Assembly: GCA_949152475.1 (NCBI GenBank)
Contig: OX424558.1
Coordinates: forward strand, 31,444,651-31,508,650
Direction: 5' to 3'
Source of the DNA: Terebella lapidaria
Taxonomy: Eukaryota > Annelida > Polychaeta > Terebellida > Terebellidae
Length of the DNA stretch: 64,000 nucleotides
Part shown: positions 8,601 through 64,000 of the stretch, one piece after another
How positions within the stretch are numbered: the stretch's first letter is position 1
Layout of the letters: every line of letters starts with the position of its first letter
Program-made: the position numbers and the translations under genes
The notes under the pieces: model-generated
What the model was told of the DNA's origin: nothing
The model's input: only the letters and a program-made list of their open reading frames with translations
Database searches by the model: none

Positions 8601-9751
8601 CGAGTCCGAAAATAACGTCCGTTTCGCTCTACGACGCACCGTTTCCGAGATATCGACGAAAACGAAAAATGCCGACTCGGCAAAAAAATTTCGGGTCAAG
8701 GTCAAAGTTTATCAATAATTCCCCAAAGACATGTTTGTCTAGTGCGACGAGTCCGAAAATAACGTCCGTTTCGCTCTACGACGCACCGTTTCCGAGATAT
8801 CGACGAAAACGAAAAATGCCGACTCGGCAAAAAAATTTCGGGTCAAGGTCAAAGTTCATCCATAATACCCCTTAGACATGTTTGTCTAGTGCGACGAGTC
8901 CGAAAATAACGTCCGTTTCGCTCTACGACGCACCGTTTCCGAGATATCGAGGAAAACGAAAAATGCCGACTCGGCCCAAAAATTTCGGGTCAAGGTCAAA
9001 GTTCATCCATAATACCCCTTAGACATGTTTGTCTAGGGCGACGAGTCCGAAAATAACGTCCGTTTCGCTCTAAGACGCACCGTTTCCGAGATATGCAGGA
9101 TGAATCATGGATGACTCAGCAAAAAATTATTTCGACCTCTAGGTCAAAGGTCGTTTGAGGTATCGATCCCAAAATCAATAGGGTTCTTCCCTGGTGATAT
9201 ATAAACCTCCGTGCAAAATTCTGCAACTATTGCCTGAATATTTTTTTAGTTATCGTCCGGAAACCAAGTTCCTCGATTTCATCCTCACGGACCTCACGGA
9301 CCTCGGAGCCGGATCAAAAAAAAAAGTACACCCTAGAGATGTTTGTCTAGGGCGACGAGTCCGAAAATAACGTCCGTTTCGCTCTACGACGCACGGTTTC
9401 CGAGATATGCAGGAAGCCTCAAGGATGAATCAGCAAAAAATTATTTTGACCTCTAGGTCAAAGGTCGTTTGACGGATCGATCCCAAAATCAATAGGGTTC
9501 TTCCCTGGTGGCATATGAACCTCCATGCAGAGTTCTGCAACTATTGCATAAATATTTTTCCAGTTATCGTCCGGAAACCAAGTCTTAAAATTAGCCTTGA
9601 TTTCATCCTCACGGACCTCACGGACCTCCGATCCGGCTCAAAAAGAATAGGGTTCTTCCTCATATCATTTCTGACTTGCGGTGAAAATTTGACAAGGATC
9701 CGTCAAGGCAATCTAAAGTTATCGTCCGGAAACCAAAAGTGGCGGAAGAAG

Positions 9752-9786
<35 letters not shown>

Positions 9787-32467: not shown

Positions 32468-35400
32468 ATGTTGCCACGGGCTGTGCAGTTTTTGGCAGCC
32501 GTCGTGGTATTCGGCTCACATGAAGGGTCTATGGTAGTGGAGCAACTCAAGCTGGGACTCATCACGCCTATGGGCGGCAAGGAGGGCTTCCAGAGGTGTG
32601 CCTCGGCCTCCACCATGGCTCTGGAACAGGCCAAGCAGGACGGCTATCTCACCAACGTCAACGTCAGGTAAAGTCCAGTCAATTATTTGGAGACGGGTGT
32701 AGAAGATTGTTAGCCAACATAGCGACGCATACAGGCAAACTAAGCTCAGTAGCCAGTCTTCATTTATCATTCAGTGAACTAACTGAATATGCAGTCCTTG
32801 TTACACATGTATTGGTAAAACTTGCGCGAAATATGTTATAATTGTTATAGAATTTTAGGTATTATCAGCTGCCTGTGGTTTCAGTATCATCTGGGCTAAC
32901 GACTACTGTGACGGGAAGGAGTCCCTGGGCCGTGTGGTGGATCTCTGGGAGAAGGAAGACATCGACGGCTTCTTCGGTCTGCCCTGCTCTGTCGGTAAGT
33001 AAAACATCAGAATCATTTAGGTGGCCACTTACGCCAATCCATGGCGACAGTGATTTTGCACACTTTTTAACAACTCCATCCAGTAACTATGACTGCCTAT
33101 TACAAAATCACTCCCTGACAATTGATAGGATACTGACTTTCAGCTTCGATCAATGCCGGTAAGATTATCGCGTACTGGGACCTGCCTCTGCTGTCCTACT
33201 CCTCCGTGGACCCGGTCCTGGCCGACAAGGACACCTACAACACCCTGGTTCGGCTCATGAGTCCCTACAACAGGATGGCTGACGCCATGGTCGAGCTGTT
33301 TGATTACTACCAGGTGAGGAAAGCGCAGTCAGTAAATATCATGACGTGTATATTCGTGTGCTAGATGTAGCTCCTCTCCTTCTAAACATGAGCGAGGATA
33401 TTATGGAGCCGTGTTCTCTCCGAGTTGCATCGAAGTTTGAAATCAGCTCCATGTTTTCCCAAATCTGTCTTTGGAATACTTCCCAATCGTTTTGTGTCTA
33501 ATTGCATGATTCATCCTCGCCAGTGGCACCGGGTGGTCCTCGTGATGATGCCTGACCCCGACTTTTACTGTGACATCGCCGGCCGAGCTTTCGAGGAGCG
33601 ATTCACCGAGCGAAACGTAACGGTCGCTGATTGGATGAGGTCCTCCGATCACATGACCCGGGACAGGATGGACACGTGGCTCGAGAGAATCCGCCACAAG
33701 GGCCGCAGTAAGTTAAAACATTACAGCCTACTTTCTGGTGTTTATGAAGCTTGTCTCGTTTTGTGGCGCTATATTCATATTCGAGCATGATCTTTTTGTC
33801 CATGAACGAAGTCAAATGTCAGAGGTTCACAACTACTAGTTTCATGAGACTGTTACATGTATCGAATAAATTGTCATCTTCGGTCACTCTAAATACTTTA
33901 CTGAAATTACTCAGCTCAATTCTTTTATGTACCACCCTGTACATAATATTCACCTTGCAGTTATCGTGGTGTGTGCGGTGGACGATGACCTGTTGCACTT
34001 CATGCTGCGGGCTCAGAAGTTTGGAATGACGGGGAATGACTACGTGTATATCACCCCCTCGCTCTGGTCGGCTGAGAACCTGGACCGGCGCTGGATGAAC
34101 ACCCAGATGAACAGCCAGGATAGCCACAAGGCTAGGGTGGCCTATGGGCCGCTTTTACAGGTAAGAGCTGTCGGAGTACATTTATTTGAAACGCCTCTTG
34201 AACTGGAACTGTCCGACTATATACGATGTACCTACATCACACTGTTAAACACGTAAATGCAATTAGGTATTTGCAATATGGACAAATTCAATTTGCATCT
34301 GATGTCAGAATCCCAAGTAAAGCTACAAAATGTACATCTCTTCCATTCCTTCCCAGATGGCCATGGGTTTTATGACAGACCCCGAGTCTGTGGCTTTCAT
34401 GGAGGAGGTTCCCGTCAAACTAGCTGAGGAGCCCTGGAACTATCACGAGTCTCTGGAGAAGGGAATCATGGTGGGTATTCATGATAGGACGGAATAAGAA
34501 GGCTGAAAGAGAGATACTTAAGACCGGACATCGCAAGTTCGACCGAGCATCGCAAGTTCGCAATTGATAGATATTGGTCGCTGCTGTAGTCAATTTGCAG
34601 GAGTTCATTCATTTCAATTCAAATTGAAATAAAAATTCTAAAAGTCTGCTTGACAAGCTATTGCTGGTCACTGTCATTCCACTGATCCCCCCGACTGTGT
34701 TGCAGGGTTCCCCATTCTCGCTGTTCCTGTACGACAGCGTCTATCTGTACGCTATGCTGGCCGACGAGATGATCCGGATGGGAGTCTCTCCACGGAACGG
34801 ATCCATGCTCTACGACCTTGCCAAACAGAAAATATTCCAAGGTATGCCAACTCTAGCCTAGCCCCAACAATGACTCTTTCCAACCTAGAAATCGGTAGGT
34901 GCGGTCTCCCAACCACCCCCACCCATTTCTAGGTTAGAGTGAGCCATTAATGGGGCTACGCCAACTCTTCACCACCAACAACAACTGTTTCCCCACAACA
35001 AGATCCAAATCTTGTTACCACGGTAACCCACTCCCTGCCAATCCTCAGGCAAGTCCGGGATCGTGACGCTGGACGACAATGGAGACCGGATCGCTAACTA
35101 CCGCCTGTGGCACCTTCCCCCGACCTCGGCCACGTACCAGGAGCTGATGGAGATCGTCATGACCGACACCTCAGGGGACGTACGTGCCTCAGTTACAGAA
35201 AATAAACTATTTATTTAATACTATCAATCAAGCGTTCTTATATCAGATTCTTATGAAAATTTGACTAAAGATACCAAACAATAATTCAAGAGGGACCTAT
35301 TTTTTTTATTTTATTTTAGAATTTACTATTTTTCATCGAAAAACTCTGGACTTCGACAGTTTATCTTGTGATTTGGTTGTTCAGGATGAAAGATTGGTTT

Positions 35401-38400
35401 TGTGTGGACATAAAGCGTTTGACTTTGTGTTGACAGCGAGTGCGGATCCACAACCAGAGAGATTGGGGAATGAACGGGCCGCCCAGAGACAGCCCAGTGT
35501 GTGGCTTCTTTGACGAGCTGTGTCATGACGATACCACCAGTAAGTGAGACGTCACACACTAAATCAAAGAATATATATACCCCGTGAAAACATACACTTT
35601 CTGAGTAGCAAAATTTTGCCAACACCCAAACTTTATGGTCCTTCCAAGATATGACTTGAAACCGTGGAGGTGGTCAAATAGTTCAATTGCTAATTTCGAA
35701 TATCGGCATGAAAAGCAACGTCGAAATATTATGCATAACTTTCCGACAGAAATAAAATTAACGTATATCAGTCAAGGTTCAGAAACCAGTCTATTGAATT
35801 ATTTTGTTCGATCTGCATTACAGACGTGATTCTGGTTTCAGGGCGTGACGCCACCATTATCTGTGTGGTGGTATTTGGTTTGGTTGTGGTGGCGGCGGTA
35901 TCAGCAAGTGCCATCATCTGCAAGTGAGTATGAATTTAGTGCTTTAAGTTACTATCAAAGTGCTTGTAATAATCAATTCATACTGCAATAATTGAAACAA
36001 AAAGTGTTTAGAAAAATGGTACGGCAGTTTGGACATATTTCTGTATTGCATTATTAAAAATTAGGTACACTTTTCTCTCACAAAATAAAGTCAAGGAGAA
36101 ACAATGAAGAATCATAATATGACCTGATATATAGCAACAAATACTTAATATCACCTTTATTCATGTTTCAGCGGACGAATGAAGTACGTATTAGTTAGAA
36201 AGAGTACAAATCCAGTGATGAAATGCATCGTAAGAAATATATTTCTATAGAGAATACGCTTCTTATACATGTATTCATATAACTTTATTTGAAACTACAC
36301 AGGCGTAAGAAATTTGAACAGGAGTTACAACTTATGTTGTGGAAAATTCGATTCGACGAGGTGGAGTTTTTCCGGAAATCAAAAAATGGGCAAATAAAGG
36401 TATAGGTACTTCTCTTTCAGTAGAAATTGTTTGCGTAAAGCAACAACAGAATGAATCTTCGTAAACACACAATTCCTAAATGAATGAATGAATGAATGAA
36501 TGAATGAGTACGTGAGTGAGTGAGTATGTGAGTGAGTGAGTGAGTGAGTGAGTGAGTGAGTGAATGTATGAATGAATGAATGAATAATGAATGAATGAAT
36601 GAATGAATGATAATTGTTTGAAAATTAATAATGTACGTATATTTGATGACCTGAACCATATTATAACCTCAGCGCCGTAGCAGTTCACATGGCTCCATCG
36701 ACTTCAGTAGCTGCGTGTCTCTGATTGGCACACAGGACACCAGCGACGCCTCGCAGCTCGGCTACCACAAAGGTAATCCCACGAGTACTGACTACACTTC
36801 AGTAATGTCATCGCTAACACAAAGATAACGTGGATATCGCACGGGATATGTTTCCTGTCACACATGTCAAGCAATTTCAATATGTCCCTTTATGGAAGTA
36901 TACGTATTTCGACAGGGGTGTTGGTGGCAGCTCGCTTTCTACAGAAAGATGGGATATTCTTAACTAGACAGGACCATTTGGAGCTCAAGCTGGTGAGACT
37001 ACCTGACAAAATCCCTTTGTTTTCACTTCATCCATTATCACATTATTTAGCACAGTTCTTCTGCATCTGACCTGCACAGATGCGAGAGTTGACCCACGAG
37101 AACATTAACACGTTTGTGGGGGCCTGCGTGGATCCACCGCATATCTGCATCATGTACAAGTACTGCTCAAAGGGCACACTCAAGGTTAGTAACATACAGT
37201 GGTAGCGTACCATTGTTCGGTTCTTTGCAAAAAGCTCAACGATATCAAAACCATTTTCAAACTTTGGCCAACATCAGTCATCGTAGTTTCTTATCTGTAG
37301 CAACATATACATCTTTCGAACAGGATATTTTACTGAACGACGACATCAAACTGGACCTGAACTTCAAATACTCTTTGACTTTCGACCTCATCAACGTAAG
37401 TTGATAATTCTGCATACATTTAAGATAATTTAATGCAACTACTGATTTCATCACACCTTTTTTGTGTCCATCCAGTCATCTCCGAATGCTGTCAATTAAC
37501 TGAAGTTTGGTTGGTACGAGTGAGACCGTATTGGCTTGACGTTATAGGGTATGGAGTACTTACACCGCTCTGAGCTCAAGTCCCACGGGTACCTGACGAG
37601 CTCCAACTGTCTGGTGGACGGATGCTGGGTGCTCAAGATCACGGACTGGAGCCCTAAAGCCTTTCGACAGCTGGTCTACGAGACCGACCACGAGAAATAC
37701 GCAGGTACATCTGGGATTTAAAATAGGATTTCCAGCAAAAAGCTTGCCATGCAGATTAATTCATTTGTTTGGAGATGGTTCATCATGCACATTTCAGTTT
37801 AATTAATATGGCAGCAATCTTCATAATTTAGTTGAGCTTGTAGCTCATTGGTTTCTGTGTGGGAATTTGTAGGCTAATAAAGAACTGTGTCTGTAGCCCA
37901 GCTGACGGTTGCCCCTGAGATCCTGAGGGAGACGGAGTCTACGCCCCGGGGCACACAGAAGGGAGACGTGTACAGTTTTGCTATCATCCTACAGCAGATT
38001 CTCTACCGAGCCAGACCGTACGAGGCTCACGGTTCCATTGGTCTCATCACTAAAGGTTCGGTCAAGCCATGTCGATTTCAAATATATGTTGTATGATGAC
38101 CAAAACATGAACGAATCATAGTGTCGTCAGAGCTAGTATTGAATCATCCTTGTTCAACAACAAAATTAGGTCTCAAATTAGTTTTATCTCATGGGTACTA
38201 TTTATAAATCACCACAAAACTTTTTCAATCACTCCTTGCCTAACAGACCTAGTGGGGCGTGTCCGTAATGGTGAGACCCCGCCGTTCCGCCCAGTGCTCC
38301 CTGACGACCGTAATGTGGACGAGAGAATGGTGGACCTGATGAAAGGCTGCTGGTGTGAAGACCCCAACGTCCGCCCAGCCTTCACCAAGATCAAAAACAT

Positions 38401-41400
38401 CTTCAACGTCATCAACAAGGGAAAGTGAGTCGAACGAGAAGTGCAAGATACAAGTTTTTAGGTTGACGGACATTCTTTTGCTATGGCGTTGCATCCGTAA
38501 TCGCCGTTGTTTGTCTCGCTTTCATCTTTGAAGTTTATGGTTAATTTTTTAATGACTTTGGCGACCATTTTCTCAAATCTGCCTGAGCGGTTTTGAGATT
38601 TTTGTTTAAAGAATTACCCTTATGTATTTTTTGTGACGTTTATAACTTTCTTTGTCCTTGAATCGATGGTCTGCATGTGGCGTCCATTTTGCTTTTTCGA
38701 CGGAATTGGCAATAATATCTCGTTGACCGAAATCAAGTCCCCATTTGTTTTGAGCCATTTTCAGCAAAAAATGAATCACAATTGAATTTGTTTTTGACAT
38801 GGGAAAAATTGCAACCACTCTTCATAATGGAAGTTGTATGGAGAAAACACTTCCTAGAATACTTCAAGGTAGAGCTTGCATATTGTCACATTCAGATGGG
38901 AAATCATATTTTGTGGTTTCAGTGGTGACCTTGAGTTTTACTTTCATTATCCTTGAAAGATCAGAATAGTCTCCATTTTCGAAAAACGATGATTTTTTTT
39001 TTACTTTGAGAGCCTTTTTCTCTAAATCTGCTCAATATCATTGTGCAGAAAATTCGACCATAAACTTTATAACTATTTTTTGTTGTAGTAAGTGTCAATA
39101 GCGATAACTGCAGTAGTTTGGTTGATCAGGTGTTTAGATGTTCGTGTTTACAATCGGAAGGTTAAAATTTGAAGCAAATAACGAAAACAATGTACCAACG
39201 AATTTATACCCCCACAGACAGTACAACATCCTGGACAACATGCTGAAGATGATGGAGAAGTATGCTCACAATCTGGAGGAGTTGGTTGGAGAAAGGACCA
39301 GGCAGCTGGAAGAGGAGAAGAAAAAAACAGATAGGCTCCTCTACAGGATGATGCCCACGTCAGTATTCTATTGTTTCTCGTCATCATCCTTGTTCGGCTC
39401 TTGGTTGAATGTTCACTGAACCATATAGTCTTTAGCATGGTGAACATTGTGACGCAATAATTATGATGATAATAAGTGAATATGGCTATGTTCCCAGGTC
39501 CGTGTCCGAAAGTCTGAAGGAGGGCAAAGTAATCGAGCCAGAATTATTTCCTGACGTGACAGTCTGCTTCTCCAAAGTGGTGGCCTTCACCAAGATGATG
39601 TCAGAAAGTAATCCTATCGAGATTGTCGACTTCTTGAATGACCTGTGGACGCTCTTCGATGACATCCTCGCCCAGTATGAAGTGTACAAGGTAAATATGT
39701 CCAATGTTATTGGTCCAATGCCTTTTTATGTTTTCAGAAGTTCTTTTCTCTCTTTTTTGTCCGCCGGTTTGGTTCTGACTCGATAACTGAAGTTAACTTT
39801 CATGTATCATCACCAAATTCCCTCCACGTTAATAAAGAGACATATTCCTTGTTATTGAGCTGGCTGTTGATATTGTATCTAGCTAAGGGCTATAAGTTAA
39901 AACTGGTAGAACAAAATGGTTGTTTTCCCCAGACCTGTCGCCCTAAACAAGCAGTTCTATAGGAACGAGTGCTGATCTGGCTCTAACTCTTTAGTCCTAC
40001 TTTCATGAAAGGTTCACTCTAGAAGAAAGTTTCACTCTCACAGCACCAGAAAAGTGCCTGCGTGAAACTAATTAATGTGCAATTCTAATGTACTGAGTAA
40101 TATACTACCCCCATCCTTCTTACATGTGTTGTAGGTTGAGACGATTGGGGACACATACATGGTGGCTAGCGGTCTGCCGGTCCGTAATGTGAACCACGCT
40201 AAGGAGATCGCTGACATGTCTTTGAACATCCTGCGAGCGGTTCAGACCTTCCCAGTCCGGCACCAGCCCGACAAGCGGCTCGAGATCCAGATTGGCATGC
40301 ACTCCGGACCCGTCATGGCCGGTCAGTGACGCATACAGGGCGATTATTCAAATCTGGATAGCCTGGGCAGTGTGGAATGTCAGAGCTTTTATTGCCGTTA
40401 GCATGCATATCATATAATACCATCTGGCCGCTCAGTGATGCCCACAGCGCCACTAGTTATGATCTGGACAGGGTGTGGGCAGAGTGCGCATGTCATTCTT
40501 ATAGTCTTCAATTGAATGTGAATATTAATGTGAGGTTGGCAGTGCTAGACAAAATGTGATCGAAATATTCCCTAATCAAGAACACACTGGTTGCAGAATG
40601 GTCTTGATAAAATTTTGAATATCATGACGAATTTTAGAAGAACATGACAAGTCACAAAAATCATGTTCACATCCATATTTATTGATCGATCAGATTCGAA
40701 GAATAGTCCCTCATGTTCATCAGTAAAGGCATTGATAAAGCTCTGATGTAAGGTAAACGTAGTATCAGATGTTCTAGTTGATCACGTTTCAGTTCTGTTT
40801 TGAACTTCACTAATGAATTTGGATTTCGAGAATTTTCATGAGGACGTAGGGTGTTGAACTTTTTTTGGTTGGACAGTCTGTCACCTGTTGATCTGCACCA
40901 CACCACTTGAACTCCTTAACAAGACTTCAAATGATCTCCTTTGGGCACTGATTTCGATGGCTCACTTAGTGCACTGATGGACTACGTGCAGGGATTTGCC
41001 ATTGTTGAAAGCAGCCTAAACCATTGTGCTCCTATGAACCGTGAAGAATAAAATATTCTCTCGTCAGCTGCATCAGAGCATGCCAATGTTTCTCCAGCAA
41101 GAGTGAGACGCTTTATTTTCCCCGAGTTTCACGTGTAGGAAAGAAGCATTCTACATTGATGAACAAGCAGAATGATGTATCCATCCTGGGTTCCTCCATC
41201 ACTGAGATTTTCAAAAGTTCCACCTCTACATGCTTGAAAGCTCCCACATGTTTCCCTACTTTGAATAAAGGCCTTATTTCCGAGATGACTGAATGCTCAA
41301 ATTGCTGAATCCCACCCCAAAGAAAATCATCCACACGGCAAGCCAGAATACCAATCAACTCGTCCTGATTGGCCCAGTGTATTACAGCCGGATCTAATTT

Positions 41401-44400
41401 GGACACTTGGGCAAGAGTTTTCAGCATCACATACTTCACTTGCCTATACCATATGATCATATCCACTGACCTGACATCCCACTTTTGCTGAGCACATATC
41501 ACTAGAAACACTCTCTGAGATCTGCTGCTGCATGTCGACGAGTCTATTTGCACTGGATCCTCAAAAACAAATTGCACAGATCCTCAAAACCACGTGCCAC
41601 CAGTCTAGCTTTACATACCATTCCAGTTGATGTTTTCTTGACTGTGTGAGCCCACAGGTTGACTTCCACCAATACTCCATCACGAGGTCTGCTACTCATC
41701 TTGAATCATAACATTCTCATCTTGTTTGGCTCGCTATTTTGTCGCAAACTTCTATTGTATTCTCTTTCGCACATGTCACAAAAGTCACAGTCTTTTCAGT
41801 TTACATTTTTGTTCAGTACCAGCAGATTCTCTCTGTCTATCCATTCTGTCATTTCCATTTTCCTGATTTTCATTGCTTCGTATGTTCATTTTTTTGGTCA
41901 ACATCCTCCACCTATATCTTGTCACTTTCATCCATTTATAATGGATGCGATTTTGCTGTACAAAGAACTTCACCAGTCTCTCTCTCTCTCGTGCATTTGC
42001 TGTTGGGGTTTTCTGTTTTCATTGGTATCATTCAAGTCTAGAATTTTCTTGATGTGTTTTCATGATCTCTCAATCCGAGTTTGATGCGCGTGGATCACGA
42101 TTCACAATCCCACCATCTTGCCCTATGACAGTGCCAAGGTACTTCCAGTCATCTCCGTCAGGGCGCTTGTAGTACACCTGCTTACTTGTCACATAGATAT
42201 TGTAGATTGTGCTTTTTTTCATCAGAGCTCTCCTGATACACTGATGTTTTTGGGACCTACATCACTTATCGTCATTCCCTCCCAAGCAAGCACCTTGTTT
42301 ACCGAAGATGAATATGTCCTCATGACCATTATTGTTGGGTACTTTGCCCGTAATTCGATGCATACCCAAAATGTCGGTTGAGTTTCATGATTTTTTCTGC
42401 AGTTCTTCTCCTGAGTTCACATCTAGCATGAGGACAACCCTGGCAAGGTCCTTGCTCGCACTGTCTGATGTCTTGTGCATGTCGCCTGGTATGTATTGTG
42501 TCTTAATGATGACATAGTAATGTTCCCTAGGAGGGTACTCCAGTTCTGCTTTGCGGAACCTCACAACTTTGTCACTTGACAAATTGAACACTGTTTCTGC
42601 TCTTTTCGGCGATGCGGAATCACGAGGGTATATTCAAGGGAAACTATCGGAGTATGCTTCCATGGTACCACTTAGTTTTCGATTTTGAAATGAGTTTACA
42701 CTATCTTCGCGGATGCACAATCTTCTGTATTGACTCCACTTCTCCAAACTTGAATGTTTTTTTCTACTTTGACCAGTAGTTATGCTTTTTCTGTCCTCAT
42801 CTGTCAAAGTGTGTATATCTAATCATGAAGCCACTTCTCCCGGTAGCCCGGTTAGCTCAGTTCGTATGTGGGCTGACTTTTCACCATTGCATTCGGTTTA
42901 GGCACGGGTTCGATCCCCGGCATCGGCGGTATGTGAGGTGGTGAGTGGTCGCCAAACCGGGCAAGTGGGTTTTCACCAGGTTCTCTGGTGTCCTCCCACA
43001 CAAATGACAACCCTTACGCCAAGATCCGAGCCAACAAGAGATGTTAATATAAGCTTCATCAATTGTTGTAAAATAAATAAAGTTTAAAGTTTTTAATCAT
43101 GAAGCCACAGCTTGCCACATTTGTGCATCCAGAGGCTCTGTGAGAAAAACTTAAATAAATTTTATCTCGTGAGCGTGATATTGCAGTCTCCCTCAGCACC
43201 ACCTTTTGGCTTACATTCTCTTCTTATTTTTACTGATCCATCACGTTTTAGGCAGTTCTTTTGCAAGTAAAATCCACAAGTATCACAACTTAAACGTGGA
43301 GCAAAACGGTTCAGAGTGTTTGCCTCTGACGGTGGTTTGTCACGTCTGGGGGCAGATGACCAGTTTTGCCTTTCTTGTTCTCCGTCCTCTGTGTCAAACA
43401 TACATTCTCTGTCTTCACAATATATAATTCTGAGTTTTGATCTGAAAATATTCTCTTCCAAGATTACTTCATCCCACCGAATGTCAATTGTGATGTTGCC
43501 GACAAAAGTTGTCTTTCTTCAGCATTAAGTGTGGCACTGTTCATCAGTTTCAATGCGAGTATGGTATCTGTTAGACTCGTGCCATACTTTTGTGTACATT
43601 ACATTGTGCAAACTCCACAATGAAACCAGTTGTGCAAACTCCACAATAGAAACAGCTCTTCTCATCCTTTTTGTACACTTCATAGGCCAGCGCGTCGCGC
43701 TGGCCTTCTACGTTTGGGTAAAACCACACCCACGGAGGGTAGGCATGAGTGGGCCCGGTCCTGCTATCATTTGTTAAATATAGTAATCTCAACAAAAGGA
43801 TCACAACACTTTCAAAAGTAATATTCCTGATTGATTCCATGAGGTTTTACATTTTAATCCTGTGAATAAACGCAAATACTGTGAGAGCTTTGCGATATTT
43901 GTTGATTTACCGTAATACATACGCATACAGTAGCGCAACAAAAATATTGAGCTAAATTACTGATGTTGGCAGAGAAATCACGAAAGCTTGCCAACTTTTA
44001 TAGTTCACGATATAAAAGTGATTAAATGTGATGGAGAATATTTTTTTACACCAAAATAGACGCATAAACTATCAATTTGGTACAAAACATTGGACAACAT
44101 TGAGACCATCGAATGTCTGTGCTCGGATATACATCTATAGATATGTTCTTCTTCGTTTATTATATGGAGGATAATGAGCAATTTAATCCAAAGAATTAAG
44201 GTCAATAATCACAGAAAATTTCCCATCCCAACATACTTCCGCTGGCCACAAAAAAAATTCTCTCCACTGTAGTTTACTTGTCTAGAGCTTTTGTTAGCCT
44301 TTTCACCCACCATGTACTTTTTTTAGGTCCTGTACTTTCAACTGTGTAGCTGTTTGTCGGGCTTTACCAGTCCAAGACAGAGACACAGCCATTGCTTGTT

Positions 44401-45318
44401 TTCCTTTGGTAGTTCTGTTTTCTGGTAAGTTTGTTTTCCATGCCTCATAGGCATTTTCAGTTTGTAGGTAACTGTAGTTAGCAGTCATCATAAATGTTCA
44501 CAACCAATCTCTGTTACCATGAAGAGTTACAGGAAATTCATTGATTTGATTAAACCACGTGCACAGCTAATATTATTGATTGGTCATACTCAAATCATTC
44601 ATGCATTGATATATTTCCGGTGAAGTGTACATGTAGTATCAAACTGAACAGAACTTCTGTACCTGTAGAGATTCTTAAGTGAACAAAATCTGGTTCCGTC
44701 ATGACAGGTGTTGTGGGTCAGACCATGCCGCGCTACTGCCTCTTCGGTGACTCCGTCAATTTCGCCTCCAGGATGGAATCCACTGGACAAGGTAAACAAC
44801 AGTGTAGTTGGCTCTGAAGCACCTATAAATATGAACCAGATTGCAAAACCATGGCTTGATCGTTTCCATGATGATCGTCTCCATAATTGAGGGCTGGTTA
44901 GTGTTAATATGACAAAATTGGTTGATATTCCTGTCCTCTGGATGTATGTCATAATCAATTACTTGCTTGCAGCCTCAAAGATACACTTGAGTGAGAGCAC
45001 ACGCCACGCCTTGAAGAGGACCTGTGTCGGGTACATCATGCCAAAACGCGGACTGATGGAGATCAAGGTCAGACGCGTACAAGCCTAGAGTATTTACATG
45101 CCCTTCTAAAGATGCGACTAGCATGCGAGTGAATTTTCAAAGCGAGCTGTTTCACCCAATATTTATATATGTTTTGTCAGGGACTTGGCCTTCAAGCGAC
45201 ATACTGGCTGACTGGCAAAGGTGGCGAGGAGACCTTGGACAGGCCTGCGAAAGCTGAAATAGCGACTGACCTGTCACAGCTGTACTATACTAGCCACGAA
45301 TGTGATGAATCTCTGTAA
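32468..45318 (+). CDS. Receptor guanylate cyclase-like protein A (natriuretic-receptor type, predicted pseudocyclase), 25 exons
   Basis: Single-pass membrane receptor. Exons: 32468-32667, 32885-32994, 33144-33313, 33524-33707, 33961-34160, 34357-34470, 34706-34841, 35049-35179, 35437-35539, 35842-35923, 36172-36183, 36303-36399, 36673-36772, 36916-36992, 37080-37184, 37324-37395, 37548-37704, 37897-38055, 38247-38424, 39218-39358, 39498-39690, 40135-40321, 44708-44791, 44972-45067 (±1), 45181-45318; about 1074 residues. Order: signal peptide ([15 protein letters not shown]), ANF-receptor ectodomain, TM about 455-475, kinase-homology domain about 547-795 ([14 protein letters not shown]), coiled coil, cyclase domain from about 843. 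It lacks the kinase Lys (VAAR for VAVK) and the first metal Asp (FSK, Lys869). It keeps Glu909, Asp913, Cys980, Asn987 and Arg991. An in-frame ATG at 32432 also exists; the start at 32468 was chosen because it aligns with gene B. Catalysis is predicted lost in homodimers. Confidence 0.95.
35540..35655 (+). promoter_or_regulatory. Conserved intronic block after exon 9 (gene A copy)
   Basis: About 115 bp just after the exon 9 donor is nearly the same in gene B (58221-58340), including GAGACGTCACACACTAAATC and GGTCCTTCCAAGAT, while most other intron sequence has diverged. It may be a splicing or regulatory element, or a trace of gene conversion. Confidence 0.5.
36172..36183 (+). other. 12-nt coding microexon of gene A
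   Basis: Exon 11. It is flanked by a TTTCAG acceptor and a GTACGT donor and completes N-G-R-M-K at the cytoplasmic face of the membrane segment. The same 12-nt exon, with the same splice phases, is present in gene B. Confidence 0.85.
36480..36612 (+). repeat. Microsatellite, GAAT/GAGT tetranucleotide repeats
   Basis: GAATGAAT runs on both sides of a GTGAGTGAGTGA run, in intron 12 of gene A. The His/Ser-rich reverse-strand frames across it are artefacts. Absent from the matching intron of gene B. Confidence 0.95.
40700..44500 (-). mobile_element. Ty1/copia-like retroelement, broken fossil
   Basis: Occupies most of intron 22 of gene A, antisense to it. Recognisable parts, in element order on the minus strand: a gag-like piece near 44303-44491, a Cys-rich zinc-knuckle-like piece near 43162-43461, reverse transcriptase near 41113-41577 (with VDDFLWGG and FKVGKH) and RNase H near 40830-41100 ([11 protein letters not shown]). 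No clear integrase and no terminal repeats were recognised. It is broken in many places (well over five) and old. A SINE has inserted within its span. Confidence 0.7.
42835..43093 (+). mobile_element. tRNA-derived SINE with 15-bp target duplication
   Basis: The head is tRNA-like: A box GGTTAGCTCAGTTCG and B box GGGTTCGATCCC. A middle region follows with TTCTCTGGTGTCCTCCCACA, similar to the central module seen in several invertebrate SINEs, then a tail ending in AAAATAAATAAAG. The target duplication TAATCATGAAGCCAC lies at 42820-42834 and 43094-43108 and is intact, so the insertion is fairly recent. Not a functional tRNA gene, since the anticodon arm is not tRNA-like. Confidence 0.9.
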
Positions 45319-49116: not shown

Positions 49117-50856
49117 AAAAAAAATCAGCCCAAAGGCTAAGGAAATTTACCGGACAATATTTGTGCTATATTTTAGATATTAGCCATTTTGTCCCATGAT
49201 CTTAAAAACAAAGTCACTGGTTAAATTCAAGGTTAGGAGAATATTCAGCATATATGTTATTTCCTACATGTCCACAATTGATTGCTAAATGGTAAATGCA
49301 ACAATAAGATATATATAGTAGCAATTTTGTGGGGTGACCTTGAAAATAAAGTCAAAGGTCAAGTTCAAAGTTATACAAATATTCAGCATATATCATTTCC
49401 TATATGTTCACAACTCACTCCTAAGCTATAAAGTGGATAATAAGCGAGATATTATGCCATTATGTGCTCTGATCTTGAAAATAAGGTCAAAGGTCAAATT
49501 CGAGGTCATCAAAATATTCGGCATACATAATTTCCTAAATGTCCACAATTGACTCTCAAGCTATAAAGTCGATAATAATCGATGGAGATATAACCTTGGA
49601 GATAGGATCAAAGGTCAAGTTCAAGCTCATGAGAAAATCAAACATATATCATTTCCTCTATGTGCACGATTAATTCATAATTTGTTGAGGTCAAAGGTCA
49701 AATTCAAAGTCATCAGAATATTTAGCGTACATCATTTCCTACTGGTCCACAATTGATTCCCAAGCTAAAAAGCCGATGATAAGCGGGATGTTAGCCATTT
49801 TGTGCTCTGACCTTTTGTGCTCTGAATATTCAGCTAAATATTTGATTTCCTCACAAAAATTGATTCCTAAACTGTAAAGTCAATATAATAAGCGATATTT
49901 TAGCCATTTTGTGCTCTAACCTTGACAATGAGGTCGAAGGTCAAATGTTCGGCATATAGCATTTCCTATATGTCCACAATTGATTCCTAAAGTTGGAATC
50001 AATTTTAAAATCAACCAAATTTAGCATTTTTGTTTGTCACGAAAACGTGAATTCAAAGTACATCTCAAGATAGTCGGAAATATATAGGAAATATGCACAG
50101 TTCGACAACAGATACTCAGAAAATTGCCGTTGATCGTGCATGAAAACAGTGGATAGAGAATGATCGGCCAAGCCTACATTAGTGTACATTGCCGGTTGCC
50201 GCAGTATCTAGACAAATACCAATGACGTCAAGAAACTGTGTGTAGAACTCGCCCACAAGGCGGGCCGCTTTGAGGAAAAAATTGCTGCGAAATAGACTGG
50301 CCCGAGTTTGAATATTTACTTGACAACTAAATTTGGGCACGTAATACATATTTTCAGACCTAAATTTGTATGATTTCTCGTTCTATAGACAATATAAAGC
50401 TACGGCAGAAAGAATAAATTTTGTCAAATCCAAAAGTGATTAAAGCTTTAAGTGAGATATTAACAATAATGTGTCCCATTATAAAGCATAGGAAAATTTA
50501 ACATGGGATAGTCCTTTTTGGGACTCGTCGAAAAACTCAAAATGGCCACCACACGCAGACCGTCGGATCAAGGGCAACGGAATTTATACACATCGCAAAA
50601 GTGTATGAGGAGAATTTTTCGAAGTGAAAATCTCAAAATCTGGCTTAAAAATGGCCGCCAAAGTACAAAATTTGACCGGTTTTTCGACAAAAATGGCCGC
50701 CATTTCGGAAAAATGTGAATATAAAAAAAACTAAAAAATACCACCCTACTTTTGAGCTATTTGTACAAAAAAAAATGTAAATGGACGACGCCGACGGCGC
50801 CGACAGACGCAACGCCACAGCATTAGGTTTTCGAACCAAAGGTTTGGCAACCTAGA
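49117..50856 (+). mobile_element. Family 2 satellite element (HINE-like), diverged copy
   Basis: Starts with CAGCCCAAAGGCTAA then TTTACCGGACAAT. It has diverged 134-bp satellite units (to about 50030), then about 400 bp not seen in other copies (50030-50440), then the common block with AAAATGGCCGCCATTT. It ends in the hairpin TTCGAACC...GGTTTGG near 50825-50852. Non-coding. Confidence 0.6.
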
Positions 50857-50979: not shown

Positions 50980-51890
50980 CTCTATACTTCGCTCTGATTC
51001 ACAGTATTATGTCATACGGTATTGTAGCTTGGAGGAATACCAAAGCGGTATAGACATTATTCACAATACAAAAACGTGTCATTAGAATTCTTTCCAAATC
51101 AGCTTGCAGAGCTAAAAACAACCGATATGTATGAATTGCAGGTTGCCTCATTTGCTAATGATTATACTTGCAACTTCCGAAATCCTTCGCAAACAGGTAT
51201 CCCAAACCCAACTCACAGCAAATTTATGACAAGACGTAGTACAAACAGAAATCTTGACATTCCAAAGAAATAGAACATGTCACAGAACCTCCGTTTACCA
51301 TATGATTCTTGGATTATGGCATAAATAACCTACAAAAATTTGATAATGGAACACAACCACCGGAAATTCCAATAGTCTTTCAAACATTATTTCACATTCC
51401 GTTATGAAAAAGACGTAGGCCTACCGTTATCTGAAAAAAAACGGAACAACAAATGTACTAGTATTGAATTTATTTGATCATTTGTATCCTTGCTCTCGGA
51501 ATAAATGTTCTGCGTCTTCGAGTTTCCAATCGCATCGCTGTCTGGACCAACCGCTGTGATACCCCCTGGACATATTGACACCCACTTTTTGAAATCATCT
51601 TCAATTAAGGTCTAGGTCACGGCTCGCTGGCCTCGACTGACACGCGCTGTTGCGCTGTCCCGCAGCATATCACTTCATATCAACATCTGTTATGTATGTT
51701 TCTCCCCTATCTCTCTTTTATTTGTTCCAATTATATGTTCACCGATCATGGGGCTGACAGGAAGACAGCTAAGGCAATATGTCTATCAACACCTAATCGC
51801 CTAAAAGTTGTATGTGGGCCTATTCTGTATTTCGCGATGTTTCGAATAAACAATTACTAGCTGCGGATGAGTGTGATGGCTTTTTTTATG
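50980..51890 (+). pseudogene. LINE 3' fragment (ORF2 C-terminus and 3' UTR)
   Basis: Broken frames read MSYGIVAWRNTKAV, IQKRVIRILSKSACRAKN and LYELQVASF-like text, typical of the C-terminal region of jockey/CR1-type LINE reverse transcriptases. A long AT-rich non-coding tail follows. The 5' part is missing and several frames are interrupted, so it is dead. Its 3' portion lies within the segment that is repeated in gene B intron 1. Confidence 0.6.
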
Positions 51891-52170
51891 AATAATGCAG
51901 AATCGGACAGCGGCATCTAAGGTCACATTTAACGCTGAGGCAACAAACAATTAATTAATAAGATTGGCAAACCAGTCTCATATCTTTTCATGAAACAAGA
52001 TTAAAAAATTAACATTACGTGAAATTAAATATAATACTGTCTGCCTTTCATGTACATTCAATCAGAAAGGAAACAGTTATATCTATAGTGATTTCATAAT
52101 TCTAATTTAGTTGCACCTTGCGCGGAGGACAATGTATGATCTTTGTCTTTGTTCGTCTTGAAGACGGCCC
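51307..52170 (+). repeat. 864-bp segment upstream of gene B, first copy
   Basis: Nearly identical to 53329-54191. It comprises the LINE tail plus about 280 bp (51890-52170) of gene B 5' flank; the latter is also similar to the 5' flank of gene A (about 31800-32080). Confidence 0.9.
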
Positions 52171-52459
52171 TGATTGATAGAACACGGGAACAGGAACCGA
52201 CATCACACCCACCGGAAAATCAAGCCTGTGACACACCGACATACAATTTATGGGCAATTTCCCTTCGAGTCGTTAGCTAGAAATTGAATTCTACGTTATG
52301 TATTGAATTCGAGTTATTAGGAGCTATTTCTGGTTTGGTTCCTTTAAACAATCAAGAAACCTGCGCCTGTCTAATTCAATCACACATTTCGCAATCATGA
52401 TTAGGAAAACAAACAACCAATGAAAAACGCCCTGTCGTCATTATGAAACTGATTCTCGT

Positions 52460-52524: not shown

Positions 52525-55500
52525 ATGTGGCGACGGGCTGTGCAATTTTTGGCAGCCGTCGTGGTATTCGGCTCGCATGAAGGGTCTATGGTAGTGGAGC
52601 AACTCAAGCTGGGACTCATCACGCCTATGGGCGGCAAGGAGGGCTTCCAGAGGTGTGCCTCGGCCTCCACCATGGCTCTGGAACAAGCCAAGCAGGACGG
52701 CTTCCTCACCAACGTCAACGTCAGGTAACGTCGACCCATTCATAAACTCCTATGTGAATTCAGGTCCAGAACGAGTTTCCTGCCCAAATATTGCACTCAT
52801 GAAGATTTCCGAAACAATATGCCGTGCAGACAACCCTTGTTGTACCTTTCTCATGAATTTGGTTTCCTTATCAACTAAATCTGTTTGAAACCCATAAGCC
52901 TATAATTTTGTGATTTTATTGTTTTGGTAATATAAATAGTCATAGGGTTATAATAGGTTACCAGGAAAATGTATAGTGTTGAGGTACAACTGTTCTTTTC
53001 CTAAGTGCTATTTTGATCTTTCAAGGCTAAATTCGAGGTCACAACTGAAATCAATACATGTATATATGACTCCCATTTGGACGCGTCAATATTCAAGTTC
53101 TAAATTGAAGAAATTCACTACTGTATTTGTGGTAATAGATTGATACCTACATTCATACCACTGAGTCGGTGTCACTGCTGGCGGACGTTAAATCTGTCCC
53201 CGAGGATACCATCAACTCAGTAGCCTTCTGGCTATTGATTAGGTACTTATGTACTTGTCATATATCTGTTCCACGGGGTTTGTTTCGGATTTCTAAAATA
53301 TTTTCATAGGTTGTTGGGCAGTTGTATATCTTGGATTATGGCATAAATAACCTACAAAAATTTGATAATGGAACACAACCACCGGAAATTCCAATAGTCT
53401 TTCAAACATTATTTCACATTCCGTTATGAAAAAGACGTAGGCCTACCGTTATCTGAAAAAAAACGGAACAACAAATGTACTAGTATTGAATTTATTTGAT
53501 CATTTGTATCCTTGCTCTCGGAATAAATGTTCTGCGTCCTCGAGTTTCCAATCGCATCGCTGTCTGGACCAACCGCTGTGATACCCCCTGGACATATTGA
53601 CACCCACTTTTTGAAATCATCTTCAATTAAGGTCTAGGTCACGGCTCGCTGGCCTCGACTGACATGCGCTGTTGCGCTGTCCCACAGCATATCACTTCAT
53701 ATCAACATCTGTTATGTATGTTTCTCCCCTATCTCTCTTTTATTTGTTCCAATTATATGTTCACCGATCATGGGGCTGACAGGAAGACAGCTAAGGCAAT
53801 ATGTCTATCAACACCTAATCGCCTAAAAGTTGTATGTGGGCCTATTCTGTATTTCGCGATGTTTCGAATAAACAATTACTAGCTGCGGATGAGTGTGATG
53901 GCTTTTTTATGAATAATGCAGAATCGGACAGCGGCATCTAAGGTCACATTTAACGCTGAGGCAACAAACAATTAATTAATTAGATTGGCAAACCAGTCTC
54001 ATATCTTTTCATGAAACAAGATTAAAAAATTAACATTACGTGAAATTAAATATAATACTGTCTGCCTTTCATGTACATTCAATCAGAAAGGAAACAGTTA
54101 TATCTATAGTGATTTCATAATTCTAATTTAGTTGCACCTTGCGCGGAGGACAATGTATAATCTTTGTCTTTGTTCGTCTTGAAGACGGCCCCGAGGATAC
54201 CATCAACTCCGTAGCCTTCTGGCTATTGATTAGGTACTTATGTACTTGTCATATATCTGTTCCACGGGGTTTGTTTCGGATTTCTAAAATATTTTCATAG
54301 GTTGTTGGGCAGTTGTATACTAATTCCATCAGGTGTACAGTAAAAACAACTACATTTAACACACTGTCTGCCCCTGATGAGGCCAGTGTGTCTTTGGATT
54401 AACTTTTTGGTCGGGCTTTGTTTCTATTGCAAAATGTTGTATTTTACGTTTGTTATTGGCATCATCAAACTCTACTGTATTTGTGGTAATAGATTGATAC
54501 CTACATTCACACGCTACAATGGCGTTTACAATGGCTTACAATGGCGAAGAAAAAATTTAAGGGTGGGACATGGCTCAAAACAGATTGAAACAGATCGAGT
54601 AATCAATATGATCGCCGCACGAAGACTGGCGATTCAAAGGCAACGAAACTTATCTATATCACAAAGGAACATATGGGGGCACCTTTTGCATCATGTAGAA
54701 ATGTTTTCAACAAATTTTGAAAAACTGGTTGCCAATGTCCGAAATTTGGCATTTTTCGTCGAAAACAGCAGCCATTTTGAAAAAAGTGCCAAAAAAGAAA
54801 ACACCCACACCCGATTTACTTTGTGGTATTTTGGTGCCAAAAATTCAATAAGATTCGGCTCTAAACTTCAATGTCATGGCAATAGGATATTGGACGATAG
54901 TTAAACTAAGAAATATATAATCGTCACAAAGTCCTGATATCTGCAAATAAGTGGACTGGCGTAAGACCAATATTCATACTATTAGGGAACTGTTGTTTCA
55001 GTATCATCTGGGCTAACGACTACTGTGACGGGAAGGAGTCCCTAGGCCGTGTGGTGGATCTCTGGGAGAAGGAGGACATCGACGGCTTCTTCGGTCTGCC
55101 CTGCTCTGTCGGTAGGTAGATTATTCAGCTCCAGCAGTGTTTGCTTAAAATTATTGAAACGATAGTGGTGTTGTACATACAAATGTACGATAGGTACCAC
55201 CAGCCAATTCGCAATTGTCGGCCTAGTCAAGTCGCAATAGGCCTAGTCATTATGAAATACCAATATTCACTTTCAGCTTCGATCAATGCTGGTAAGATTA
55301 TCGCGTACTGGGACCTGCCCCTGCTGTCCTACTCTTCCGTGGACCCGGTCCTGGCCGACAAGGACACCTACAACACCCTGGTCCGGCTCATGAGTCCCTA
55401 CAACAGGATGGCTGACGCCATGGTCGAGCTGTTTGATTACTACCAGGTGAGGACTGTGGATAGTCTACGAACGTGTTGGTGTGTTTGTTTGTTCTAGAAA

Positions 55501-58500
55501 TCTCCCTCTCCTCCTGGGCGTGAACGATGAACATCGAACCAGTACCCAAGTATAAAGTATACCGGATGAACAAAATCGAGTCCGCTATCCAAGTCCAGTG
55601 TCAGGCAAACTCGAGAAAATTTCATCGAACTTCATGGCCCTCCAAATATAGCTCAGAAGGAAGTGGAAACGGTCTTGCTCCATTGGTTGTTTATTGATTG
55701 ATTAGACCTTCCTGTTTGGTTATTTTGAATCCTGTTTCATAACAGTATAACAAACAGGTCTAAACATAGTGATGTACATTTTTTACTGTCTTGAACAATC
55801 ATAATTGGTTAATATAACTGAAGACTTTCAAAAATAAAATTAACCATATTCATATCTGAAGATTTTCAATAAGAAAAATAACCATATTCATAACATCCGT
55901 TTCAGTCTATTTAAATGGAGCATCTCATTTTTTTTAATAATATGGGTTTAACTCCACAGCCGTGAATCGTGTACCATAAACGTTTGAAATTAACTCCAGA
56001 GTTTTCGAATATGTTTTAGTAATGTAGGCCCCCTATATCTTGTCGTATCACCCACCCTCGCCAGTGGCACCGGGTGGTCCTCGTGATGATGCCTGACCCC
56101 GACTTTTACTGTGACATCGCTGGCCGAGCCTTCGAGGAGCGATTCACCGAGCGAAACGTAACAGTTGCTGATTGGATGAGGTCCTCTGATCATATGACCC
56201 GGGACAGGATGGACACGTGGCTCGAGAGAATCCGCCACAAGGGCCGCAGTAAGTAGTACTTGAGCAAAGTAGACTTACTTATACAACATTTTGATGCGGT
56301 TTGCCTCTCTCTATGGCATTTTATTGACGTCCTGATATGATATGATCGTTTCGTCCCCAAACACTACGACTCGTAGACGAATGTCTATCAAAATGCGATC
56401 AAAATGCCTTCCAAAAACACATCTGAATCAGTATCCAGAAGACTTATCTATCTGGTCCATTATGTTTGAACAAATGTAGGACCTATACTTTCATCTTCAA
56501 TACTATTCAAACAATCATACTAAAGCTATTTAGTCCATAGTCTACGACGTACTTGTACATGTATACGCCCAGTCATGTTAGGCACCACCCAAGCCCATTG
56601 AACTCATCTTCCTTGCAGTTATCGTGGTGTGTGCGGTGGACGATGACCTGCTGCACTTCATGCTGCGGGCTCAGAAGTTCGGGATGACGGGGAATGACTA
56701 CGTGTACATCACCCCCTCGCTCTGGTCGGCTGAGAACCTGGACCGGCGCTGGATGAATACCCAGATGAACAGCCAGGATAGCCACAAGGCTAGGGTGGCA
56801 TATGGTCCGCTTTTACAGGTACGAGCTGCCATAGCTCAGTGTACAGTCATCTGGGCTGGAGGTTCAGTTTTGCTGACTCCAGCACTGGTTTACTAGCTAG
56901 ATATTCAGAATACAAGTTGAGAAACAAGACATAGAAAGCTTGGAGTATGGACATATTCACTGTATGTGACAATAAACCCGCTCTCTTCCCCTCCTCCCCA
57001 GATGGCAATGGGTTTCATGACAGACCCCGAGTCTGTGGCTTTCATGGAGGAGGTTCCCGTCAAACTGGCCGAGGAACCCTGGAATTACCACGAGTCTCTG
57101 GAAAAGGGAATCATGGTGGGTAAACTGACCATAAAACAGCGAATATACGTATATGCTTCGTTGGAGGTATTCATGGTATGGCAGAAGAATATTTCTGAAG
57201 GAGTGAAAAAGAAACATTTGGATAGATAATCATTGATAGCTGGTATAACCAATTTGCATGGGTTGATCATTTCGAATAAATTGAAACCACCGTATTGCAT
57301 AACATTACCAGTTTGTTACATGATAGTTGACAAATCATTGCTGGTCACTGTCATTCCACTGATCCCCGATTGTATTGCAGGGTTCCCCGTTCTCGCTGTT
57401 CTTGTACGACAGCGTCTATCTGTACGCTATGCTGGCGGACGAGATGATCCGGATGGGAGTCTCTCCGCGGAACGGATCCATGCTGTACGACCTTGCCAAA
57501 CAGAAAATATTCCAAGGTACTGGAACTGTTCACCTGCATCCACCAACAAACCAACCCTCTATCACCCTACACCAACCTACAAATATTGTTTCCATGGTAA
57601 CCCACTCACTGCCAATCCCCAGGCAAGTCCGGGATCGTGACGCTGGACGATAATGGAGACCGGATCGCTAACTACCGCCTGTGGCACCTTCCCCCGACCT
57701 CAGCCACGTACCAGGAGCTGATGGAAATCGTCATGACCGACACCTCAGGGGACGTACGTGCCTCAGTTACTAATGATACTGTGGAATAGCAACATATTTT
57801 CTACATTTGTATTTAGGAGACGGTAAACAGATAGACATGGATGAGGAGAAAATGAAAATTCATTATCAAAACATGAGAGCGAATCTTAGAGATGCATAAA
57901 TATACGGAGCCATTCACCGTACTATGAAGATCATTGTACAGAAGTTGTACTGAAAGATCAAGACCTAGCATTCGATATTGGTTGCAATGATCTATTCATA
58001 CAATATTATCTTTCGTCACATTGACTGGGGAAAGAAACAGGTGTACATGTACGTATATCACGTCGAAGAGAATGTTGTTGAAGATCTGTCATGTTGACAT
58101 TTGATCTGTGTTGACAGCGAGTGCGGATCCACCACCAGAGAGACTGGGGAATGAACGGGCCGCCCAGAGACAGCCCAGTCTGTGGCTTCTTCGACGAGCT
58201 GTGTCATGACGATACCACCAGTAAGTGAGACGTCACACACTAAATCAAAGAATATACTAGTACGTCGTGAAAACATACACTTTATAAGTAGCAAAATCTT
58301 GCCAACAACTAGAGCTTAAATGGTCCTTCCAAGATTGAAATGGAACCATGATGGTAGCGATCAGCAGGAAGTTGCTATTCCATTTTTCATTGACAATCAT
58401 GGTAACCGTATCAGTCGATGCAAGATCGATCAAACGTCGATTGATTGATTGATTCGGATCAATCTGTTTTACAGACGTGATTCTGGTTTCAGGGCGTGAC

Positions 58501-63975: not shown

Positions 63976-64000
63976 GTACTCGTCAATATACCTAGCTCTG

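Follow-up and report, generated by a model that had tools for sequence, protein, structure and literature searches.

Tandem receptor guanylyl cyclase genes of Terebella lapidaria with a beta-1-like pattern of active-site residues

Gene structure and the replaced catalytic residues

What can a receptor guanylyl cyclase do when lysine takes the place of the first of its two metal-binding aspartates (hereafter, Asp1 and Asp2)? This question is raised by genes A and B, two tandem paralogues in a 64,000-nt stretch of the Terebella lapidaria genome (hereafter, the window; GCA_949152475.1, contig OX424558.1, 31,444,651–31,508,650, forward strand). Gene A (32468–45318) comprises 25 exons encoding 1074 amino acids, with an ATG at 32468 and a TAA at 45316–45318. 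Gene B (52525–64000 within the window) also comprises 25 exons, encoding 1054 amino acids; its spliced model joins the window to a downstream locus (L011) that holds the last two exons and the stop codon (joined coordinates 64065–64361), and its last sense codon ends 361 bases beyond the window end. Both genes, with all their features given below, are on the plus strand. The introns are GT-AG throughout, and neither spliced model contains an internal stop codon.

The domain order of gene A is a ligand domain (Pfam ANF_receptor, PF01094; residues 43–394, E 4.8e-52), a kinase-homology domain (PK_Tyr_Ser-Thr, PF07714; 568–787), a coiled-coil linker, and a class III cyclase domain (Guanylate_cyc, PF00211; 858–1040). 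The Pfam scan covered gene A, and the ectodomain of B is about 99.1–99.5% identical to that of A, with 92.5% identity in the cyclase exons. HNOBA was the only soluble-cyclase-type Pfam family matching A (over the linker, 802–849), and the haem-NO-binding domain had no Pfam match in gene A. One hydrophobic stretch (24 residues), a candidate for the single transmembrane segment, was picked by eye. Human GC-A has the same domain order as gene A. The linker and cyclase domain of A align to it (PDB 9bcv) end to end, over 249 query residues. Genes A and B are complete natriuretic-peptide-receptor-type guanylyl cyclase genes. Of the two metal-binding aspartates of such receptors, Asp2 is present and Asp1 is Lys in both genes, and the guanine-specifying Glu and Cys are found in the motifs VETIGD and RYCLFGD.

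The cyclase domain starts in exon 21 (A: 39498–39690; B: 61619–61811), which reads FSKVVAFT in A and FSKVVSFT in B, and the lysine is encoded by AAA in each case (A: CFSKVVAFT, 39574–39576; B: CFSKVVSFT, 61695–61697). The Lys of A lies opposite the Asp of YFSDIVGFT in the GC-A alignment. The original prediction had placed a lysine at this aspartate in both copies, had excluded sequencing error, and had dated the change before the duplication. The complete 25-exon models confirm the AAA codons, which are neither chance nor a sequencing error, the two copies of exon 21 differing by a dS of 0.71. The change, common to both copies, is most simply older than the duplication; recent gene conversion as the source of the shared Lys is unlikely, because at this dS the exon has probably not been copied between A and B in recent times. 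It had also been predicted that both proteins are intact without coding indels, of which the open frames and splice sites held up and the absence of indels did not: the two lengths agree through residue 1047, and the C-terminal tail after GGEET then has 27 residues in A and 7 in B.

Further along the cyclase domain, exon 22 (A: 40135–40321; B: 63377–63563) keeps VETIGDTYM, with the base-specifying Glu and Asp2. The same exon holds a second replacement, a Gln codon (CAG; A: 40288–40290; B: 63530–63532) where the Arg that stabilises the triphosphate would be expected (position 4; hereafter, Arg4). The original prediction included neither this replacement nor the six-gene family and the resemblance to soluble beta-1 described below. 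Exon 23 (A: 44708–44791, preceded by a 4386-base intron; B: 63892–63975) keeps the guanine Cys, ribose Asn, and phosphate Arg in A and the counterpart motif in B.

We searched the species' own genome (761.6 Mb, 438 contigs) for the FSKVV(A/S)FT motif with a degenerate DNA pattern that covered most codons, some Ser codons being omitted, and the only exact matches were A and B. The Pfam cyclase model had 172 matches in the genome and the FSK exon of gene A had 71, part of which entered a census of catalytic residues. This partial census comprised 63 rows read exon by exon, or 58 after the removal of 5 duplicate gene rows, with Asp1 uncovered in 3 of the 58 (L053, L078, and L072, the tail of the gene g3 described below). 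In the 55 readable loci, Asp1 was D in 49, K in 2 (A and B), and N, E, G, and Y in 1 each. The Tyr-bearing locus (L061; C12:13.42 Mb, FGYLLGFD) keeps the other seven checked residues. Of the 55 loci with coverage of Arg4, three (A, B, and L050) lacked it; Asp1 is missing from L050 as well, and this locus looks sGC-beta-like. Apparent catalytic losses at four other loci (L017, L020, L031, and L034) came from alignments that ran into introns and were gone with exon-wise alignment. Among the matches listed in an open-access literature search there was no paper on Asp-to-Lys receptor cyclases, which is not proof of absence.

Based on the residue roles described in PMC3591389, the active site can be divided between the two sides of the dimer. 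One side provides the two metal aspartates and the triphosphate Arg (D486, D530, and R574 of human sGC alpha), and the other provides residues for guanine (E473 and C541), ribose (N548), and phosphate (R552 and K593). We located D530, R574, and the five beta-1 residues by PDB 6jt0 numbering, and they fall where expected; the role of position 4 is that of R574, placed via 6jt0_A numbering. The eight-site pattern of A and B is KEDQCNRK, with K, D, and Q on the metal side (2 of 3 residues lost) and E, C, N, R, and K on the guanine/ribose/phosphate side (5 of 5 kept). Human sGC beta-1 (PDB 6jt0 chain B) has G, D, and T on the metal side (FSG, GDKY, and Thr at the Arg4 site) and keeps E473, C541, N548, R552, and K593, whose letters were matched in the PDB chains. 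Both A/B and beta-1 have therefore replaced Asp1 and the triphosphate Arg and kept the second Asp, Glu, Cys, Asn, Arg, and Lys. They differ in that A and B have Lys and Gln where beta-1 has Gly and Thr, and in that gene A carries ANF_receptor and kinase-homology domains and no Pfam match to the haem-NO-binding domain. GC-A, which is like gene A in overall organisation, has FSDIVGFT where A and B have FSKVV(A/S)FT and IQIG, and mammalian receptor cyclases, GC-A among this class, are described as homodimers in PMC5225109. PMC3591389 describes metal coordination as dependent on both aspartates and catalytic-domain homodimers of human beta-1 as inactive. Judged from these residue roles, homodimers of A or B should be poor enzymes.

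Selection on the pair and conservation in a six-gene clade

We estimated dN/dS between A and B with the Nei-Gojobori method. The ligand-binding ectodomain is encoded by exons 2–9 (A: 32885–35539; B: 55002–58220), and codons 68–452, after exon 1, contain 1 nonsynonymous vs. 38 synonymous differences (dN 0.0011, dS 0.167, dN/dS 0.007). This very low ratio is to be read cautiously because synonymous differences are unusually rare in the ectodomain exons (42 of 301 sites) compared to the intracellular exons (120 of 372; Fisher p = 2.4e-8), with a dS of about 0.15 in the former (32468–35539 vs. 52525–58220) and 0.42 in the latter. Introns in both halves of the genes align poorly (45–73% in forced alignments). 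The low ectodomain dS may reflect exon-limited conversion (homogenisation) or constraint on codons or synonymous sites.

In the intracellular part, dN/dS was 0.082 for the kinase-homology domain, 0.071 for the cyclase domain, and 0.072 for cyclase exons 21–23 (bootstrap 0.031–0.140). That the proteins are kept by selection, as originally proposed, agrees with this strong purifying selection on the cyclase exons, and for the A/B pair the value goes against neutrality. Controls were drawn from the 190 pairs that 20 other cyclase loci can form; 55 of these offered at least 80 codons and a dS no higher than 1.3. The A/B cyclase value was below that of 54 of these 55 pairs, the exception being L028–L031 (0.071 at dS 0.08), and all eight pairs with similar dS (0.37–0.48) had higher values (0.095–0.258); as control pairs share loci and their intervals overlap that of A/B, this comparison does not amount to stronger constraint. 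The eight pairs are canonical at each site read, with L029 lacking the later exon. Put fairly, the cyclase domains of A and B, poor as they are in metal-side residues, are about as constrained as canonical ones.

A search with the ectodomain revealed close relatives of A and B at four further places in the genome, namely g3 (C14:2.67–2.70 Mb), g4 (C17:22.37 Mb), g5 (C14:22.32 Mb), and g6 (C14:28.49 Mb), and exon-by-exon alignment found no stops in the aligned codons of these four. The six genes form one clade with a bootstrap of 100 in a tree of 53 sequences from this genome only. Between lineages of the clade, the ectodomains are 66–91% identical and the cyclase exons 45–67%; for g4–g6 the ranges are 89–91% and 45–57%. 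The linker exon is 83–85% identical between A/B and g3, g4, or g6, whose cyclase exons share 52–64%, and is 70–72% identical between A/B and g5. On fixed topologies, the branches of g4 and g5 measure about 0.06 for the ectodomain and 0.44–0.48 for the cyclase (about 7–8 times longer), and that of g6 about 0.06 and about 0.25 (about 4 times longer). The A/B stem measures 0.20 and 0.31, and the trend is reversed for g3 (about 0.55 and about 0.22). A canonical gene outside the clade (contig C16, one 1233-codon open frame) is 31% identical to A in the ectodomain and 51% in the FSD exon, the reverse of the conservation trend in the clade.

Catalytic residues differ among the six genes. Both metal aspartates are Asn in g5, which is spared at the five residues of the other side, and g4 has losses on both sides (Asp2 to A, Glu to Q, Asn to D, and Arg to K). 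All covered catalytic residues are kept in g3 and all checked ones in g6, where LGV replaces FGD after the Cys; both are metal-competent. By our count, active-site losses occurred in at least three lineages of the clade, the branching order of which is weakly resolved, with disagreement between single-domain trees. In cyclase-domain trees, g5 stands beside A/B (60–72% support), whereas it groups with g6 in the kinase-domain tree (77). Exons 22 and 23 are fused in g4, g5, and g6 and split in A, B, and g3. Based on this fusion and the kinase-domain tree, the losses in A/B and in g5 are taken as independent, and the same two observations oppose the idea that the Asn codon of g5 (AAC) is an intermediate between GAC and AAA.

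Proposed complementary halves and the alternatives

The explanation we favour, with about an even chance of being right, is that each of A and B is the beta-like partner, the one that does not supply the metals, in a heterodimeric receptor cyclase. With Asp1 replaced by Lys and Arg4 by Gln, neither A nor B alone would have a self-sufficient active site. They would instead supply the guanine/ribose/phosphate half while a metal-competent receptor cyclase supplies the metals, the two pairing, we infer, through the conserved ectodomain and the coiled-coil linker. A and B would then act as soluble beta-1 does and the partner as alpha-1, with one ligand-controlled active site per dimer. What is observed here comprises the residues, gene integrity, selection, paralogues, and pattern match; the pairing, the identity of the partner, the activity, and the ligand are inferred. 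That the ectodomains of A and B barely differ suggests a ligand common to the two. One speculation is that the second site always stays empty and that, within it, a salt bridge could join the Lys to the remaining Asp2.

The partner could be a clade member that is metal-competent (g3 or g6) or a receptor that has lost the opposite half, and losses of the latter kind, which fit a heterodimeric cyclase, are present in the same genome. In L057 (C2:27.914 Mb) the ribose Asn is replaced by Ser and the phosphate Arg by Lys, and in L060 (C12:38.448 Mb) both are replaced by Thr. Asp1, Asp2, Arg4, E, and C are kept in both loci, with Lys8 uncovered; in human sGC alpha, the two replaced sites are occupied by Thr and Lys. 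L057 and L060 are probably receptors, based on same-strand ectodomain matches nearby (strong for L057, weak for L060). Counting against this partner, L057 is not the closest relative, and the ectodomain pieces adjacent to it match A at just 36–38%. Going by their residues, both loci are candidate partners for A and B, L057 being the one that we would place beside g3 and g6.

Complementation is favoured because the enzyme domain is constrained, because losses are one-sided in A/B and g5 and fall on the opposite side in L057 and L060, and because the linker is conserved in A, B, g3, g4, and g6. Loss was one-sided in 4 of 4 two-loss receptor lineages (p = 0.046 with equal site odds) or 4 of 5 with g4, a post hoc and weak test. 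Against it, the g4 losses on both sides fit no half, the long cyclase branches of g4, g5, and g6 look as if constraint had been relaxed and not as if a role had been retained, and the g5 linker is less conserved (70–72%).

The main rival makes A and B decoy or dominant-negative receptors. They would use the conserved ectodomain to capture the clade's ligand, either sequestering it or damping cGMP as dead dimers with an active sister receptor, and the cyclase domain would be kept just as a dimerisation surface. NPR-C is known as such a ligand-soaking decoy receptor. An ectodomain far more conserved than the cyclase (89–91% vs. 45–57% in g4–g6), the dN/dS of 0.007 in the A/B ectodomain, the residues lost on both sides in g4, and the loss of both metal aspartates in g5 are in its favour, and for g4 and g5 it may explain more than complementation does. 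However, the cyclase domains of A and B are about as constrained as those of canonical paralogues, and none of the five other-side residues has been lost in A/B or g5, although a pure scaffold would have no need of them. This role is somewhat unlikely.

Two further readings appear improbable. In the first, A and B are working homodimers with altered chemistry: Asp2 would suffice, Lys would stand in for one metal ion, and the product would be some cGMP or a different molecule. This is consistent with the retention of Asp2 and the five other-side residues and with the purifying selection on the cyclase exons, but the description of both aspartates as essential for metals and the reported inactivity of beta-1 homodimers with the same pattern (PMC3591389) speak against it, as does the loss of the triphosphate Arg. 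In the second, similarly improbable, the kinase-homology domain or the coiled coil recruits signalling partners and the cyclase is structural; the kinase-homology dN/dS, about as low as that of the cyclase, would fit, whereas the retention of five guanine/ribose/phosphate-side residues is left without explanation. Pseudogenes in the making, or a sequence or assembly artefact, are ruled out for practical purposes by reading frames and splice sites that are complete in both genes, by diverged introns, and by dN/dS values far below 1.

Heterodimeric receptor cyclases are already known as a kind from nematodes, and complementation between A/B and a metal-competent partner varies the idea proposed for ODR-1/DAF-11 of Caenorhabditis elegans. 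Key residues for GTP binding or Mg coordination are proposed to be missing from these two, which would be active only as complementary heterodimers (PMC8045692, PMC5225109); PMC5225109 presents the pair as the first receptor cyclase that is an obligate heterodimer. According to PMC8045692, native cells have yet to yield formal proof and the two may also act as homodimers, and some soluble beta subunits are reported as active as homodimers (PMC5225109). A proposed shortage of catalytic residues in a receptor cyclase is what ODR-1 and DAF-11 have in common with A and B. In contrast, the ANF-type ligand domain of A and B is complete and extremely constrained, while the ODR-1 ectodomain is reported as dispensable for olfaction (PMC5225109). 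The A/B case is likely independent of ODR-1/DAF-11, as A and B arose within this genome's clade. In Crassostrea gigas, PMC4883820 describes 23 RGC kinases, 8 of them called oyster-specific. This spiralian receptor cyclase repertoire is large, as in T. lapidaria; that study classifies kinase domains, whereas catalytic residues were read here. The new parts of the present case are the lineage, the beta-1-like pattern in a receptor with a ligand domain, and the inverted conservation.

More tentatively, the complementation favoured here may extend to a combinatorial set of peptide-type receptor cyclases, with an origin separate from the nematode receptors and from the soluble enzyme, that shares a near-fixed ligand domain and a split active site. 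Beta-like members (A, B, and g5) and alpha-like or complete ones (L057, g3, and g6) would yield cGMP only where the right two meet at the membrane. The case for obligate receptor heterodimers rests mainly on the two nematode receptors, and the literature still counts their association in native cells as unproven (PMC5225109, PMC8045692). If A and B are such subunits, they would be a second case, strongly selected and probably independent, implying that split active sites recur in receptor cyclases. Because A and B have intact ligand domains, ligand-gated activation of a heterodimer could be tested with them, and the inverted conservation with repeated catalytic losses would make the clade a natural series for the origins of pseudo-cyclases.

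Other features of the window and the assembly

The surroundings of the two genes contain several repeats. An 867-base repeat, 99.2% identical between copies, flanks exon 1 of gene B (51307–52173 and 53329–54194), with the second copy bounded by 131-base direct repeats (53198–53328 and 54189–54319); it is a recent mobile element or a local duplication. Arrays of two satellite families, with periods of about 147 and 134 bases, are spread over the first 12 kb and recur at 49 kb (720–1474, 7510–9094, 2000–3027, 10955–12115, and 49335–49582). Reverse transcriptase and tyrosine-recombinase frames occur together at 14759–19725 (minus strand; Phage_integrase below the cut-off), with short inverted repeats near both ends, in what is presumably a DIRS-like retroelement. 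Before gene A, a fragment at 9719–10120 (minus strand) resembles MutS domain V (E 7.6e-6, below the Pfam cut-off) and is a putative exon of a MutS/MSH-like gene.

Elsewhere in the assembly, the host COX1 (L070; C438:7251–8591) reads through with the invertebrate mitochondrial code and looks like that of a mollusc (gastropod), and a tRNA scan of this mitochondrial locus gave no matches. Another contig (C417; L071) carries a divergent COX1 with insertions, which we take to be that of a ciliate. A further locus with two cyclase matches (L082; C237:5900–8300) has a 756-aa frame if TAA and TAG are read as Gln, compared to none above 200 aa with the standard code. These ciliate-like contigs may come from a symbiont, food, or a contaminant.
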